Of a DNA stretch of 43,331 bases, positions 32,116 to 39,082 are shown piece by piece; position 1 is the first letter of the stretch, and the number at the start of each line of letters is the position of its first letter. Under the pieces are notes generated by a model that was not told the DNA's origin, searched no databases, and was given only the letters and a program-made list of their open reading frames with translations. The position numbers and the translations under genes were made by a program. The stretch comes from Candidatus Thermoplasmatota archaeon (GTDB lineage Archaea; Thermoplasmatota; SW-10-69-26; JACQPN01; JAJPHT01): assembly GCA_035540375.1 (NCBI GenBank), contig DATLGO010000009.1, forward strand, positions 1 to 43,331, given 5' to 3'.

Positions 32116-32263
32116 GGTCCCGGACCCGGTCCCGGACCCGGTCCCGGACCCGGACCCGACGCCCGGCACCCGGACCCGACGCCCGATCCCGGTCCCGGCG
32201 CCCGACGCCCGGTCCCGGCGCCCGCTCCCGGCACCCGGCACCCGACGCCCGGTCCCGAAACCG
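32116..32263. repeat. Second hexamer array, opposite orientation
   Basis: About 150 bp of CCCGGT, CCCGGA and CCGACGC-type units with CCC at a 6-nt period. It is the reverse complement of the unit at 7351-7642, so the G-rich strand is minus here. It lies in a non-coding region ending at tRNA-Leu(GAG). Confidence 0.85.
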
Positions 32264-32409: not shown

Positions 32410-32494
32410 GCGGAGGTAGCCAAGCCTGGCCAACGGCGCTAGCTTGAGGGGCTAGTCACGTAGGTGTTCCACGGTTCAAATCCGTGCCTCCGCA
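32410..32494 (+). tRNA. tRNA-Leu(GAG)
   Basis: An 85-nt class II tRNA. The acceptor GCGGAGG (32410-32416) pairs with CCTCCGC (32487-32493) and is followed by discriminator A. The anticodon arm is CTAGC-TTGAGGG-GCTAG, giving anticodon GAG, which reads CTC/CTT. A long variable arm and T-loop GGTTCAAATCC are present, with no encoded CCA. Confidence 0.95.
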
Positions 32495-32819
32495 CTCCGG
32501 CCGCGCGCGTCGCGCGGTCCGCTTTTCCGACCCGCGCGGCGGGTCCATGCGCGCGCGGTCCTGCGCGGGCGCCGCGTCGCCGACGGCCGCGTCCGGCGCC
32601 TCCGGCCCGACGGTTCCGCACGCCTTGGCCGCCCCCTTCGCCCCGATGAAAGACGGTATCCAATACGCTTATATGCGCACCACGGTACTTCCCGCCATCC
32701 CCCGAAGCGGGGGCAACCGGCTCGGCATCGTGACCGGGCGCCGCGAAACGACACGCGGTCGCAATCCGAACGGTTAAGTAGCGAACATGGACTCCGGTGA
32801 AAGCTCAGGAGAGGTTGTG
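32495..32819. other. Intergenic region with an orphan promoter and hairpin
   Basis: 325 bp without a supported gene. The left half is GC-rich filler after the tRNA. Then come a strong TATA-like box (32667-32676), a hairpin CCCCCG-AAG-CGGGGG (about 32699-32713), a second box GGTTAAGTA (32771-32779) and a Shine-Dalgarno GGAGAGG for the gene at 32820. A 34-codon frame (32673-32777) overlaps the first box; it has no other support. Confidence 0.5.
32667..32676. promoter_or_regulatory. Orphan TATA-like box
   Basis: GCTTATATGC resembles a strong archaeal TATA box and is nearly symmetric, but no start codon lies 25-30 nt downstream on plus. It could drive a small RNA running through the hairpin near 32700, or a long leader for the surface-protein genes. 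Confidence 0.45.
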
Positions 32820-33778: not shown

Positions 33779-35224
33779 ATGCGGCGTGCCCCGATCGTCC
33801 TCGCCATCGTCCTCGCGACGACCACCCTCGTCGCGGGGGCGCCCCCCGCCTCGGCGCAGTATCAGAAGGAGCTCGTCGCGGTCTCGCTCGAGGTCCTCGA
33901 TCCACCCCAGTTCGTGCCGTACCTCGGCGACGCCCGCTGGCGTCTCGTCATGCGGGACCTGAGCCGCGACGCCGTGCCCGAGGCGAGCCTCCAGGGCGAT
34001 CCCGGCTTCGCCCACATGACGACCTTCGAGGTCCAATTCGTCAACGTCCCCGCCAATGCGTCCCTGAACGGCTGGGAGGCGGCGCTCACCAACACGACCG
34101 TCTTCACCTCGGGCGGCATGGTCCGCGAGACGACCCTCATCGTGCAGGCGCTCGGCCCGGTCTCCCTCAACCACGTCACGCTGAAGGTCGTCGCGACCAT
34201 GCGCGCGAGCGACGGCGGGACGAAGTCGGCGGAGGTCCACGTGAACGCGTTCCTCGAGCCGTTCCGGCTCGCGAACGTGTTCATCAAGACGCCCCCGAGG
34301 TTCGTCGAGCAGCAGAAGGTCGTCACGTATCTCGTCCAGGTCGACAACGTGGGGACGTACATCGACACGTTCCTCCTCAACGTCTCCATCACTCCGGGCT
34401 GGAAGGCGATGATCACGCCCCGCGTCGTGATCGAAGGCAAATCGTCCGCGTTCGTGAACCTCACGATCCAATCGCCTTCGGGACAGCTCTGGCATCCCGG
34501 CGAGACCGCGATCATCCGCGTCTCCGCCCGATCGATCCACGAACCGGAGGTGGCCTTCACGGGCGCGAGCGTCATCATGGTCGACGGACCCTACGTTTCG
34601 GCCCTCTGGCGACCGCTCGCCGCGCTCTCCCTCGTCGCCCTCGCGCTGCTCACTGTCCGCGCATGGCGCGACCGCGACCTCGCGGCGCTCGAGAAGGGGC
34701 GACCCCGCAAGCCGCGTCCCACGCCCCGCCAGGCCGTCCTCCTCGCCGCCCTCGCGAAGCGCGACCCGCCCGCGTGGCGCGCCCGGAAGGCGGAGCAGCT
34801 CGCCCTCTGGCGCGAGCGTCGCCGCGCGTACCGCGCCGAGATGCGGGCCCGCCGCCGCGACGAGCGCAGGCTTCTCCGCGAGGAGCGCCGCGAGCTGCGC
34901 GCAACCCGCGCGAAGATGCGGAAGGCCGAGAAGCTCCGCCGCAAGGCCGAGAAGCTGCGCCTGCGCGAGGAGGCGAAGCAGCTCCACGCGACCCGCAAGG
35001 CGCAGAAGGCGGCCGACAAGGTCGCCCGCAAGGACGCGAAGCGTCAGGCGAAGGTCGACGCGAAGGAATCGAAGCGCCTCGCGAAGCTCGCGAAGGCCAA
35101 GGAGAAGCAGCTCGCGGCGGCGAAGAAAACGCTCGACAAGGCGCGCGCCAAGGCCGAGAAGGCGGAGAAGCGGGCGGCAAAGGCGGCAAAGCGCGCCGAG
35201 AAGCGCGGCCGAAAGGGGTCTTGA
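33779..35224 (+). CDS. Single-pass membrane protein with a long basic coiled-coil cytoplasmic tail
   Basis: The 481-aa protein has a signal peptide (1-26) and an exported part to about 274 with beta-sandwich repeats resembling the upstream protein (VTYLVQVDNVGTYIDTFLLN, SSAFVNLTIQSPSGQ). One membrane helix follows (WRPLAALSLVALALLTVRAW, 277-296), then about 185 residues made almost only of Lys, Arg, Ala and Glu with a coiled-coil pattern (RRKAEKLRLREEAKQLHATR). Orientation rules put that tail inside the cell. A high positive charge in a long helix suggests binding to DNA, RNA or the membrane, but that is inference. It starts 20 bp after the previous gene with GGGGTGAC before the ATG, so the two are co-transcribed. 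Family not recognised. Confidence 0.75.
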   Translation: MRRAPIVLAIVLATTTLVAGAPPASAQYQKELVAVSLEVLDPPQFVPYLGDARWRLVMRDLSRDAVPEASLQGDPGFAHMTTFEVQFVNVPANASLNGWEAALTNTTVFTSGGMVRETTLIVQALGPVSLNHVTLKVVATMRASDGGTKSAEVHVNAFLEPFRLANVFIKTPPRFVEQQKVVTYLVQVDNVGTYIDTFLLNVSITPGWKAMITPRVVIEGKSSAFVNLTIQSPSGQLWHPGETAIIRVSARSIHEPEVAFTGASVIMVDGPYVSALWRPLAALSLVALALLTVRAWRDRDLAALEKGRPRKPRPTPRQAVLLAALAKRDPPAWRARKAEQLALWRERRRAYRAEMRARRRDERRLLREERRELRATRAKMRKAEKLRRKAEKLRLREEAKQLHATRKAQKAADKVARKDAKRQAKVDAKESKRLAKLAKAKEKQLAAAKKTLDKARAKAEKAEKRAAKAAKRAEKRGRKGS

Positions 35225-35259: not shown

Positions 35260-36018
35260 ATGGACGGACCGAGGCTGTCCCGAGCGGCCCTCGTCGCGCT
35301 CCTCGCGCTCGCGCCGGCCTTCGCCGGCTGCCTGGGCGGAGGCGGCGAGCGGCCCGTCGTCGCGGCGAGCGCGCCGCGCGAAGCCTCCGGGATGACCGTT
35401 TTCTTCGCGGCCCCCCACAGGCTCATCGGGCTTGCTCCGCCGCAAGCGGAGCTCCAGGTCCTGTACAACGGCAAGCCGGCCTACCCCGCAGGCGGCATGT
35501 GGGCGACGTTCCCGGTGAGCGATCGGCAAGGCGCGTTCTACCTCCCCTACTCCTTCTTCGTCGTGGGAAACGGGCAGTACGAGGTCCGTCTGCGGTACGA
35601 CGGCGAGATCGCGACGACCCGCGTCAGCGTCGACAAGTGGGTCGAATACGTGTATCTGCATCCCTACCCGACGGACCGGCGCACGATCGCGGTGGACCTG
35701 CAGCTGTCGCGCCAGTCCGGCGGCGACCCCTCCAATCGCATCATGGCCTACGGCGATCTGACGATCCACGTCTACTACCGCGGCGAAGACACCTCGGGCT
35801 CGACGCGGGAATACGTGCACCGGGTCGCCCTCAAGACGAGCGGCGAGAAGGATTTCACCCGCCTCGAGATCCCGCGATCCGTGTTCAACCGCGGCCCGGG
35901 ATACTATTCCTTCGAAAGCAAGTTCGACAACCTCGATGCGAAGGGCAACCACGGGGTCGGCAACGACCCGAGCCTGGCGGCCCGGTCGCCCCCCTGGAAC
36001 TGGATCCGCATCGAATGA
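35260..36018 (+). CDS. Lipoprotein of unknown function
   Basis: The 252-aa protein has a lipoprotein signal (MDGPRLSRAALVALLALAPA then FAGC, Cys24) and a Gly-rich linker. A mostly beta mature domain rich in Tyr and Arg follows (YLPYSFFVVGNGQYEVRLRY, YGDLTIHVYYRGEDTSGSTR). No motif is recognised. GGCTTAACG at 35229-35237 is a TATA-like box about 27 nt before the ATG, so it has its own leaderless promoter despite lying close behind the coiled-coil gene. Confidence 0.7.
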   Translation: MDGPRLSRAALVALLALAPAFAGCLGGGGERPVVAASAPREASGMTVFFAAPHRLIGLAPPQAELQVLYNGKPAYPAGGMWATFPVSDRQGAFYLPYSFFVVGNGQYEVRLRYDGEIATTRVSVDKWVEYVYLHPYPTDRRTIAVDLQLSRQSGGDPSNRIMAYGDLTIHVYYRGEDTSGSTREYVHRVALKTSGEKDFTRLEIPRSVFNRGPGYYSFESKFDNLDAKGNHGVGNDPSLAARSPPWNWIRIE

Positions 36019-36054
36019 GCAACGTTTATGGCGCATTCCATGCGTGGGCGCCGC

Positions 36055-37125
36055 ATGTCGCGCGCGCTCGCCCTCGGCCTCGTCCTGGTCGCCTCCACGC
36101 TCGCGGGCTGCGCGTCGCCGACGGGCGAGCCGCTTGACTCCGATGGCGACCGACTCCCCGACGAGGTCGAGGTGTCGCCGCGAAGCATCTCCGTGCTCCG
36201 GCCGGACGGCGAAACGACCCTCGAGGTCACGAGCGACCCCAAGCTCGCGGATACGGACGGCGACGGCTTGAGCGACCGCGACGAGTTCCTCCTTGGCACG
36301 GACCCCCGGAGCCTCGACACGGACGGCGACGGCCTCCTCGACGGCCGCAGCATCACCGCACAACCGGGCACCGACCTCCACGCCCGGCTCGTCGCGGCGG
36401 GCATCCATACCGCGCGCGACGACCCGACGACGTTCCTCGGCGAGGCCTCCATCTGCGAGGGCGGAGACGGCCTCAATCCCACCCAGCACAACAGCGACCG
36501 CCCCCTCGTCGACGGCCTCGGCGACGGCGAGGAGGCGGCGGGCGGCTGGAACGTGACCGTGCGCGGCGTCACGACGTTCGTCCAGTCGAGCCCGTGCGTG
36601 CCCGACACCGACAGCGACGGTCTCGCGGACGACCTCGAGAAGGCCGCGGGCACCGACCCGACGAAGCGCGACACGGACGGCGACTCGACGCCCGACCGCA
36701 TCGACGCCGATCCGCTCGCGAACCTCGGCCTGCGCCTCACGCTCGACCGCGTCACGCAGAAGACGCCGCGCAACCCGCTTGGCGACGACGTTCGGTTCAT
36801 CATCCAGAGCGGCCAGGATTCGCGGACCTTCACGGCGAAGGTGGGCGCCTCGACGGACGTCCGCATCACGTTCGCGTCCGATTCGGACGACGCGACGGCC
36901 GAGCCCGGGCGACTCCCGACGCAGGTCACCATCACGGCGCTCTACGACGTGGCGGGCAACCCGCAGCCCATGCGCATCGCGGGGTCGGGCCACATCCTGT
37001 CGCTCACCTACGACCTCATGACGGGGGAATGGTCCACGCAGGCGGGCGCGAAGGGGCGCTCGACCGGCACGAGCGAGGGCGAGGACGCGACGGTCGCGTT
37101 CTCCCTCGCGACCACGCGGTCCTGA
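36055..37125 (+). CDS. Lipoprotein with thrombospondin type 3 (calcium-binding) repeats
   Basis: The 356-aa protein starts MSRALALGLVLVASTLAGC, a lipoprotein signal with Cys19. The mature part carries TSP3-type calcium loops: LDSDGDRLPDEVE, LADTDGDGLSDRDEFLLGTD, LDTDGDGLLDG, and later PDTDSDGLADDLEKAAGTDP and RDTDGDSTPDRIDADP. The C-terminal 120 residues form a beta-rich domain without recognised motifs. TSP3 repeats bind Ca2+ and stiffen extracellular stalks. I start it at ATG 36055 because GTTTATG at 36024-36030 is then at TATA distance; in-frame ATGs at 36028 and 36040 give longer forms. Its TGA shares TGATCA (37123-37128) with the convergent stop. Confidence 0.82.
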   Translation: MSRALALGLVLVASTLAGCASPTGEPLDSDGDRLPDEVEVSPRSISVLRPDGETTLEVTSDPKLADTDGDGLSDRDEFLLGTDPRSLDTDGDGLLDGRSITAQPGTDLHARLVAAGIHTARDDPTTFLGEASICEGGDGLNPTQHNSDRPLVDGLGDGEEAAGGWNVTVRGVTTFVQSSPCVPDTDSDGLADDLEKAAGTDPTKRDTDGDSTPDRIDADPLANLGLRLTLDRVTQKTPRNPLGDDVRFIIQSGQDSRTFTAKVGASTDVRITFASDSDDATAEPGRLPTQVTITALYDVAGNPQPMRIAGSGHILSLTYDLMTGEWSTQAGAKGRSTGTSEGEDATVAFSLATTRS

Positions 37126-37884
37126 TCAGGCGGCCTTCCACCAGGGGCCAAGAAGCGCGTCCCACGCGGCGCGCATCCGCGCGTACTCCTCGGGGCAGCC
37201 TTCGGCGCGCTCCGCGGTAAGCCCGTCGCCGCCCGCGAGATCGGCGAAGCGGTCGGGATCGCTCCCGTAGACCCAGCAGAGGATGTTGTGGAAGCGCTGC
37301 GCGTCGAGGCTGTGCGCGTCGGCGAAGGAGGCCTCGTCCGGGTCCGCGGACCCGGCCTCGAGCGCGAACCATTCGGCGGCGGAGAGCGCGACGCCCTCGC
37401 CGCCCTCCTCCGCGAGCACGATCAAGGCGCTCAGCTGGTCGACCGCGTCCTCCTCGCGGCCCGTGGCGGGAATCCCGTTCACGTCGATGATCGCGTGTCC
37501 CGCTTCGTGGAAGAAGACGAAGGTCCACGTCCTGACGGCGTTCTCGACCGCGCTCGCATCGTCGTGGCCCGCGGCCTCGAAGAGCGCGCGCACGTGCTCG
37601 AGGAGATCGTGGCACATCGTGATGCGCCGCGTCTCGGGATCGTAGAACGCGTTCGCCTCTCCGCAGTCCGCGGCCGCGACCTCGACGTCGCGCGCGAGGC
37701 GGAGGTTCGCGTTGAGGTCTTCCACGAGCGCGGCGGGAAGGCCCGACGTTTCGAGCGCCCGCGCCGCGGTCCCGGGTTTGACCGCGACGACGAGAAAACG
37801 ACCTTCGGTCGCGTCCGCGGCGGGCGCGGCGCAGCCCGCGAGGGCGACGGTCGAGAGGAGCGCGGCGACGACGGCCGCCCGCAC
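37126..37884 (-). CDS. DUF4344-like metallopeptidase lipoprotein
   Basis: The 252-aa protein begins with a lipobox signal (MRAAVVAALLSTVALAGC, Cys18). It has a zincin motif HEAGH at 126-130 followed 14-15 residues later by Glu144/Glu145 (GREEDAVDQLSALIV), the third-ligand pattern of DUF4344 putative metallopeptidases. Conserved family features YDPETRRITMCHDLLEH and the C-terminal CPEEY are also visible. The substrate is unknown; it should act outside the membrane. The start is GTG 37884, one base after the stop of the site-2 protease gene, so the two are one operon. Confidence 0.8.
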   Translation of the reverse strand: MRAAVVAALLSTVALAGCAAPAADATEGRFLVVAVKPGTAARALETSGLPAALVEDLNANLRLARDVEVAAADCGEANAFYDPETRRITMCHDLLEHVRALFEAAGHDDASAVENAVRTWTFVFFHEAGHAIIDVNGIPATGREEDAVDQLSALIVLAEEGGEGVALSAAEWFALEAGSADPDEASFADAHSLDAQRFHNILCWVYGSDPDRFADLAGGDGLTAERAEGCPEEYARMRAAWDALLGPWWKAA

Positions 37885-37885
37885 G

Positions 37886-38614
37886 TCAGCACCCCGTCGC
37901 GGGGCTCACGCCCGGCACGACGCTTGGATCGAAGACGACGTAGGCAAAGGCCGCGATGACGAGGAGCGTGCTGAGGTACGCGAGCTTGCTCCAGGCCCAC
38001 ACCTTGCTCCCGTCGAGCGGCGGGATGGGGAGCATGTTGAAGCCCGCGAGGAAGACGTTCACGAACACGACGACCTGCCAGAGGTTCGCGTGGCGGGCGA
38101 CGCAGAGCTCGGGCGTGAAGAGGAACATCGGAAGCGCGATGAGCGCGAGGCCGAGGTTGAGGGCGGGACCCACGATGCTGATGACGCCCGAGTCCCGTCG
38201 GGTCGCCTGGCCGTAGATGTGGACCGCGCCCGGCGCCGCGAACACGACGCCGAGGCCCATGCTCACGAGAAGTCCCACGAGGAGGTTGGTCCAGCTCGCG
38301 CGGAACTCCGCCCACATGTAGCGGCGCTGGGCGACGACCTTGTGCGCGAGCTCGTGGAGCACGAACGACGTGATGACGATGCCCACCGCATAGGGGAGGA
38401 TCGCGAGGAGCGTGGACTCGTCGAGCTTGCCGTCGATCGCAAGCGCGGTGCCGGAGAGGGCGAACGTGAAGGCCACCGAGAGCACCGCGACGCTCAGCGC
38501 GAGGTGGAGGATCTCCTCGCCGCTGAAGGACACGGTGGGCTCGTCCTCCGTCTCGTCCCAGCGGTCGATCGCCCCGGTCGGCTGCACGGGGCCGTCACCC
38601 GTGTCGCGGTTCAA
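37886..38614 (-). CDS. Site-2 protease-like intramembrane metalloprotease (M50)
   Basis: The 242-aa polytopic protein has the zinc motif HELAH (87-91) in a membrane helix and the second motif NMLPIPPLDG (193-202), with Asp201 as the third ligand. This is the core layout of M50 proteases that cut membrane-bound regulators within the bilayer. A soluble acidic stretch of about 30 residues precedes the first helix; no PDZ or CBS domain is present. The start is TTG 38614 (MNRDTGDG). Directly downstream is a metallopeptidase lipoprotein in the same transcript, suggesting linked envelope proteolysis. Confidence 0.88.
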   Translation of the reverse strand: MNRDTGDGPVQPTGAIDRWDETEDEPTVSFSGEEILHLALSVAVLSVAFTFALSGTALAIDGKLDESTLLAILPYAVGIVITSFVLHELAHKVVAQRRYMWAEFRASWTNLLVGLLVSMGLGVVFAAPGAVHIYGQATRRDSGVISIVGPALNLGLALIALPMFLFTPELCVARHANLWQVVVFVNVFLAGFNMLPIPPLDGSKVWAWSKLAYLSTLLVIAAFAYVVFDPSVVPGVSPATGC

Positions 38615-38641: not shown

Positions 38642-39082
38642 TCATTCGCGGCGGCCGAAGGTGAAGAGCAGCGCGCCGAGGGCGAGGACCGCGAGGACCC
38701 CCGCGAAGCCGGGGCCGGGCAGCTCGCCCGGGGCGGCGTGCTCGACGCGGTATTCGAGCTCGATGGTCCGCGTGTTGGGATTCTCGAAGGTGAACCGGTA
38801 GGCGCCGGTCACGGGAGCCTCGAACGTCCCGTCGCGGGCGTTCTCGCGCGCGGGGGGGAAGATCGTGGTCGCGTTCGGACCCGCCGTCTGGATCGTGAGG
38901 AAGACCTCGTAATAGCGAGGCTCCTTGACGAGATAGGACCAGGCCACCTTCTGGCCCTTTCCGAGGCTCACGGTCACGGTCTCGCTCGTCCCCGGGGCGA
39001 GCGTGAGGGCGTCGGCCTTCACCGCGGCGAGCGCGGTGGGGGCCAGGAGAACGAGGGCGAGCGCAAGGAGAACCGGGCGCAC
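38642..39082 (-). CDS. Secreted protein with canonical PGF-CTERM tail
   Basis: The 146-aa protein has a signal peptide (MRPVLLALALVLLAPTALAA) and a single beta-sandwich domain (VTVSLGKGQKVAWSYLVKEP ... GAYRFTFENPNTRTIELEYR) that resembles GOLD-type domains; that likeness is by eye only. The C-terminus LPGPGFAGVLAVLALGALLF then TFGRRE is an almost ideal PGF-CTERM signal, expected to be processed by an archaeosortase. The start is GTG 39082, with minus GGTTTAAGG (39106-39114) as TATA box, so it is leaderless. It is followed, on the same strand, by the site-2 protease gene. Confidence 0.75.
   Translation of the reverse strand: MRPVLLALALVLLAPTALAAVKADALTLAPGTSETVTVSLGKGQKVAWSYLVKEPRYYEVFLTIQTAGPNATTIFPPARENARDGTFEAPVTGAYRFTFENPNTRTIELEYRVEHAAPGELPGPGFAGVLAVLALGALLFTFGRRE

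Follow-up and report, generated by a model that had tools for sequence, protein, structure and literature searches.

The open reading frame at 33779-35224 (+) of the window, by which we mean the whole 43,331-nucleotide stretch analysed here, runs from ATG to TGA and encodes a protein of 481 residues (hereafter the subject). It belongs to a family distributed across the window's phylum, Thermoplasmatota, a range that is a lower bound. An exported beta domain, a single membrane helix and a basic cytoplasmic tail, the layout put forward in the original prediction, are supported by the sequence, by hydropathy and by a structural model. A paralogous surface protein is encoded directly upstream, and in five families the pair follows a gene for a PRC-barrel protein of the CdpB1 type. 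We tentatively propose that the subject acts as a bitopic linker, joining a surface partner to the CdpB1/FtsZ division apparatus.

Architecture of the protein

The features of the gene and of its closest neighbours are collected in Table 1. The signal peptide region was modelled as a helix over residues 4-14, and an equivalent signal peptide is present in almost every homologue whose N-terminus is complete. AlphaFold2 was run on the subject and its paralogue, and the beta region stayed below a pLDDT of 60. The exported region of the subject is probably composed of two Ig-like sandwiches, the second of which bears a conserved VxNxG...GxYV signature; across 20 homologues, N190 and G270 of the ectodomain are invariant and W99 is near-invariant.

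Table 1. Positions of the features of the subject gene and of the genes next to it
Feature	Positions	Strand	Basis or remark
Paralogue P0002	32820..33758	+	Signal peptide, beta domains, PGP/PGF-type C-terminal hydrophobic-Arg anchor
Signal peptide, residues 1-27	33779..33859	+	Inferred from sequence: RR, hydrophobic core, ASAQ; Sec-type
Exported beta region, residues 28-275	33860..34603	+	Modelled strands 68-268, low confidence
Single transmembrane helix, about residues 276-295	34604..34663	+	Hydropathy 1.87; modelled helix 278-305
Cytoplasmic juxtamembrane segment, residues 296-354	34664..34840	+	Alignments; conserved
Continuous basic helix (predicted), residues 330-477	34766..35209	+	Model, pLDDT mostly 80-94
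Downstream lipoprotein	35260..36018	+	Similar lipoproteins 3' of the subject in G003, G004, G005, G006, G012

The tail that follows the membrane helix, about 187 residues long, contains 72 K/R, 25 D/E and 42 Ala, giving a net charge of +47. Its GC content by codon position (0.76/0.53/0.94) is like that of the rest of the gene, the ectodomain having a GC3 of 0.92; the GC3 of 0.94 indicates that the tail is genuine coding sequence and rules out that it is the shadow of a long antisense frame.

On the inner side, the AlphaFold2 model passes from the membrane helix (278-305) through a Pro-rich break to a helix at 316-326 and then, after a DPP break, to a long helix at 330-477. Given this composition and a shallow alignment, a long helix modelled with confidence is to be expected, and taken alone it is weak evidence. 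The hydrophobic periodicity of the window tail is significant, none of 500 shuffles being as strong; it peaks at 100.0 degrees (residues 329-476), as compared with 102.9 degrees for heptads. Periodicity near 102.9 degrees, as in a heptad coiled coil, was thus not found in the window tail, and the position of the peak makes a straight amphipathic basic helix a better fit than a classic coiled coil. The original prediction, that everything after the membrane helix is one coiled coil, therefore needs amendment: a long basic helix is indeed predicted, but breaks precede it and heptad structure is unsupported. A classic ER/K single helix was also considered and dropped, as the salt-bridge spacing in the window tail is not above that of shuffles (p 0.99). 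Significant periodicity (p<0.05) was seen in only three of nine relatives tested and so is not constant within the family.

A search of Pfam with both window proteins revealed no family that covers the subject, a PHROG search with the subject gave no match, and a PDB profile search of its core returned Ig/MSP-like matches only, all insignificant (best 0.03). A whole-protein scan of genome contigs produced a low-complexity tail match in Prevotella, which was discarded as chance. The nearest named model is NCBIfam NF041740 (choice-of-anchor T), which the subject matches at 3.1e-9 (36.3 bits) and the paralogue at 1e-11 (44.5 bits), both under its 70-bit cut-off. These searches bear out the view that no described family has this layout; they do not bear out the ‘NEW3 type’ label given to the exported domain, since neither window protein matches Pfam NEW3/NPCBM_assoc (PF10633) at E<=1. 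The paralogue of one homologue reaches NEW3 at E=0.012, with 16.2 bits against a cut-off of 24.4.

Conservation of the layout and of the gene order

In a first search, which covered 116 relatives, homologues of the subject turned up in the window's own family, order, class and phylum; a profile search of 390 genomes then extended the set. From the fetched loci, 64 subject proteins were picked with a profile covering the juxtamembrane segment as well, and all 64 keep both the membrane helix and the tail. The tail is net positive in 63 of them (median +24, up to +113), a count in which the helix of G224 was misplaced by the script and several f5 tails were partly masked; the tails of G005, G156 and G134 have almost no net charge. 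Tail length ranges from about 70 to over 500 residues. Loss of the tail, or its replacement by unrelated low-complexity sequence, which had been named as the outcome that would indicate drift, was therefore not seen among these homologues.

The pattern within the tail is one of conserved ends and a drifting middle. Over 263 related pairs, mean pairwise identity is 0.50 in the ectodomain, 0.53 in the 60 juxtamembrane residues, and 0.39 in both the mid-tail and the last 25 residues. Outside the window's class the juxtamembrane consensus reads GKPxKPWxIPEExxYLxxLKxxDPxxYxxxxxMMxxEYxSALLWY, and of the 64 homologues 51 have the KPW element and 50 the EYxSA element; the window's class is a diverged branch, in which this motif has diverged too. 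At the extreme C-terminus of the f16 and f34 proteins, a motif near IKREQEKQxRK is kept in 25 of 33. In G076, a 130-residue protein encoded directly 3' of the subject (L043 11097-11489, +) is almost wholly a K/A/E-rich helix.

The paralogue P0002 ends 20 bases before the subject on the same strand. The ectodomains of the two proteins are homologous by family profile (E 2.1e-20) and weakly so by BLASTP (E 0.044), so that the earlier description of the neighbour as a paralogue was correct. Wherever sequence 5' of the subject was available (61 loci), its immediate neighbour on that side is the paralogue, on the same strand. P0002 terminates in a PGF/PGP-type hydrophobic segment followed by a basic stop, which resembles a sorting signal. 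No curated CTERM model matches P0002 itself; in one homologue the score with Heimdall-CTERM is 23.9 bits against a cut-off of 24, and the window's genome encodes an exosortase-like gene (5.7e-45), which together make processing of such a signal in the paralogue plausible at the level of sequence. Exosortase-like genes scored above cut-off in 14 of 26 genomes.

A short PRC-barrel gene precedes the paralogue in all 46 loci with room for it in five families: f5 (15), f16 (26), f29 (3), f34 (1) and f36 (1). The order PRC-paralogue-subject is maintained across these though the subject proteins are only about 20% identical. In two f16 genomes, the paralogue-subject pair is tandemly duplicated behind a single PRC gene (L086 4679-10926 and L091 4764-11917). 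The PRC gene is absent beside the pair in 10 of 10 loci with room from f1-f4, f31, f32 and f39, the window included.

The neighbouring PRC protein scores 43.9 bits with PF05239, against a cut-off of 21.2, and matches 8onw_A (9.3e-14) and domain 1 of 8qzo (2.3e-13); it scores 47.7 bits with 8qzo domain 1 versus 5.5 with domain 2. We take 8onw and 8qzo to be structures of Archaeoglobus CdpB1/CdpB2; the PDB file labels the molecule only as ‘PRC-barrel domain-containing protein’. With a PRC barrel over the Pfam cut-off and its best match to a CdpB1-like PDB domain, the neighbour is of the CdpB1 type. A second short PRC protein of G018, encoded elsewhere, matches 8qzo domain 2 and 8onw_H, so that the two proteins mirror the pairing of CdpB1 with CdpB2. 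The window's genome has one CdpB1-type and one CdpB2-type protein, both encoded away from the subject, the CdpB1-type gene on another contig. A role of PRC-barrel proteins in cell division is established for Haloferax (PMC12186497), and those of arCOG02155 have been described as division factors (PMC12134362).

Nearly all members of the phylum (33 of 36 genomes) have a CdpB1-type gene and the subject is not so widespread, which indicates that division can proceed without the subject and counts against the proposal made above. FtsZ is encoded in all 55 subject-bearing genomes tested and SepF in 46 of the 55. The genes for FtsZ and the subject are 2.4 kb apart in G090 and no more than 20 kb apart in five other genomes; because four of the cases are from one genus, we give this proximity little weight.

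By family median, the C-terminal tails of CdpB1-type proteins are net acidic in all 10 families that have the subject, and those of 19 families without it centre on 0 (p 0.0007); the comparison was post hoc, with shared ancestry uncontrolled and family medians entered by hand, and we treat the acidic tails as a lead only. The idea that the tails of the PRC protein and of the subject simply pair by charge fits the family medians and is contradicted by about ten f16 genomes, in which the PRC tail is slightly positive, so that such pairing is not general. The CdpB1-type C-termini also carry conserved terminal motifs, (K/D)ID(V/M)(I/V)E in f16 (e.g. L044 11861-12208, -) and EIETIDEPI(L/V)RE in f34.

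Several other genes near the subject in the window encode exported or membrane proteins. A TSP3-repeat lipoprotein (36028-37125, +) has similar genes near the subject in G001, G002, G005, G006, G062 and G076. It is followed by a lipoprotein with a DUF4344 metallopeptidase domain (37126-37884, -; 2.8e-69) and by an M50-family intramembrane protease (37886-38614, -); genes of M50-like type are also found close to the subject in G001, G006, G076 and G099, the window copy being the only one scored. An exported, membrane-anchored protein of 146 residues (38642-39082, -) matches EMP24_GP25L/GOLD with 29 bits, over the Pfam cut-off of 25.9; this domain is best known from eukaryotic p24 cargo receptors. 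An imperfect GC-rich repeat of GGTCCCGGACCC-like units occupies 32118-32240, just upstream of a tRNA-Leu(gag) gene (32410-32495).

Possible roles of the conserved pair

The linker proposed above builds on what was directly observed, namely the layout, its conservation, the pairing of the paralogous genes and the CdpB1-type third gene in five families. The presence of FtsZ in every subject-bearing genome tested and of SepF in most of them, and the conserved C-terminal motif of the f16/f34 proteins, agree with it. Outside the membrane, the ectodomain of the subject would pair with the surface protein encoded by the upstream paralogue. Inside, the juxtamembrane segment and the long basic helix would extend about 20 nm into the cytoplasm, where the cytoplasmic part may dock on the PRC-barrel CdpB1, or on a CdpB1 partner, of the FtsZ/SepF apparatus. 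Such docking, presumably at the division site, would connect the division ring with the S-layer side of the envelope. The same function may extend to the class of the window itself, in which the CdpB1-type gene is found away from the pair. Function is read here from gene order, which is no proof of contact. Linkage of the subject to division genes was seen in every locus with room from the five families and in none of those from the window's class, f31, f32 and f39; in the window's class, the lack of an adjoining PRC gene and the diverged juxtamembrane motif weaken the proposal. The original prediction had suggested a link from the envelope to an internal nucleic acid or protein. Gene order points to the latter, a protein of the CdpB1 type, a nucleic acid being the less probable target.

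A more ambitious claim, which we regard as possible but doubtful, is that the CdpB1-paralogue-subject cluster encodes a previously undescribed trans-envelope division complex, in which the long basic helix joins an Ig-like surface pair to the Z-ring at its CdpB1/CdpB2 layer. If this were true, FtsZ archaea would gain a physical link between constriction on the inside and remodelling of the protein coat on the outside.

The best of the alternatives, rather unlikely in our estimation, is that subject and paralogue form a structural pair of the envelope that is unlinked to division. They would serve as an anchor for the S-layer or pseudoperiplasm, with the basic rod stiffening or anchoring the membrane via acidic lipids and cytosolic partners, and co-location with the PRC gene would reflect joint housekeeping control. 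Preservation of the three-gene order across five families at so low an identity exceeds what is usual for housekeeping. The constancy of the pair, which stays together even at loci that lack the PRC gene, is nevertheless as expected for an envelope structure, as are the sorting-signal-like end of the paralogue, the frequency of exosortase-like genes and, in the window's class, the other exported genes (lipoproteins, M50 protease) that follow the subject.

It is less probable still, and in our view quite unlikely, that the Lys/Arg helix tethers DNA, RNA or ribosomes to the membrane, as the nucleic acid part of the earlier suggestion would have it. The near-constant and at times very high positive charge of the tails is in keeping with such a tether, and the window protein ends in a 60-residue K/A/E repeat whose composition resembles that of H1-like tails. 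The best conserved part is, however, the juxtamembrane segment and not the charge-rich middle, three homologues have a tail charge near zero, and no nucleic-acid or ribosome neighbour is conserved across families. That the tail is mostly drift, a short functional juxtamembrane segment being followed by low-complexity positive sequence that has no specific partner and serves as a positive-inside topology signal, would account for the lower identity of the mid-tail than of the ectodomain, the variable tail length and the short DNA repeats inside the tail, but is very unlikely given that every homologue keeps the tail, that the C-terminal motif persists in most f16/f34 proteins and that topology by itself needs few residues only.

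For the proposed linker to the division apparatus, a conserved membrane pair beside a CdpB1-type gene in five families makes a direct binding and localisation experiment possible, and the acidic and basic tails, together with the conserved cytoplasmic segment, constitute a candidate contact to test. The analysis also names and delimits a family that is missing from Pfam.

Relation to known systems

As far as these libraries show, both the layout and the family are new, whereas a bitopic linker from envelope to ring is already known in bacteria. NF041740 covers the exported domain of both window proteins; unlike the subject, the model stops before the membrane helix and has no basic tail. The NEW3/NPCBM-associated domain (PF10633) is a beta-sandwich of similar type, yet is not reached by either window protein. 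A published secretion cluster of vWA, MoxR and Ig-like proteins (PMC5898192) was set aside as a match, as no vWA or MoxR gene was noticed adjoining the subject.

CdpB1 and CdpB2 form a two-partner arrangement. As compared with that of Haloferax, the third gene of the cluster described here is CdpB1-type by sequence and the CdpB2-type protein is encoded elsewhere; CdpB1 and CdpB2 carry a PRC barrel, whereas the subject is without one and is the membrane neighbour of one. Archaeal SepF and CdpB proteins act inside the cell; to our knowledge, few of their membrane partners are known, and how the ring is connected to the coat in FtsZ archaea is largely open. Bitopic divisome proteins of the bacterial FtsN, ZipA and EzrA type, and haloarchaeal CdpA, have one membrane helix, with an envelope side and a side that contacts the ring. 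Their resemblance to the proposed role of the subject is in the way they work only, and the exported Ig-like domain joined to a long basic helix sets the layout of the subject apart from all of them.
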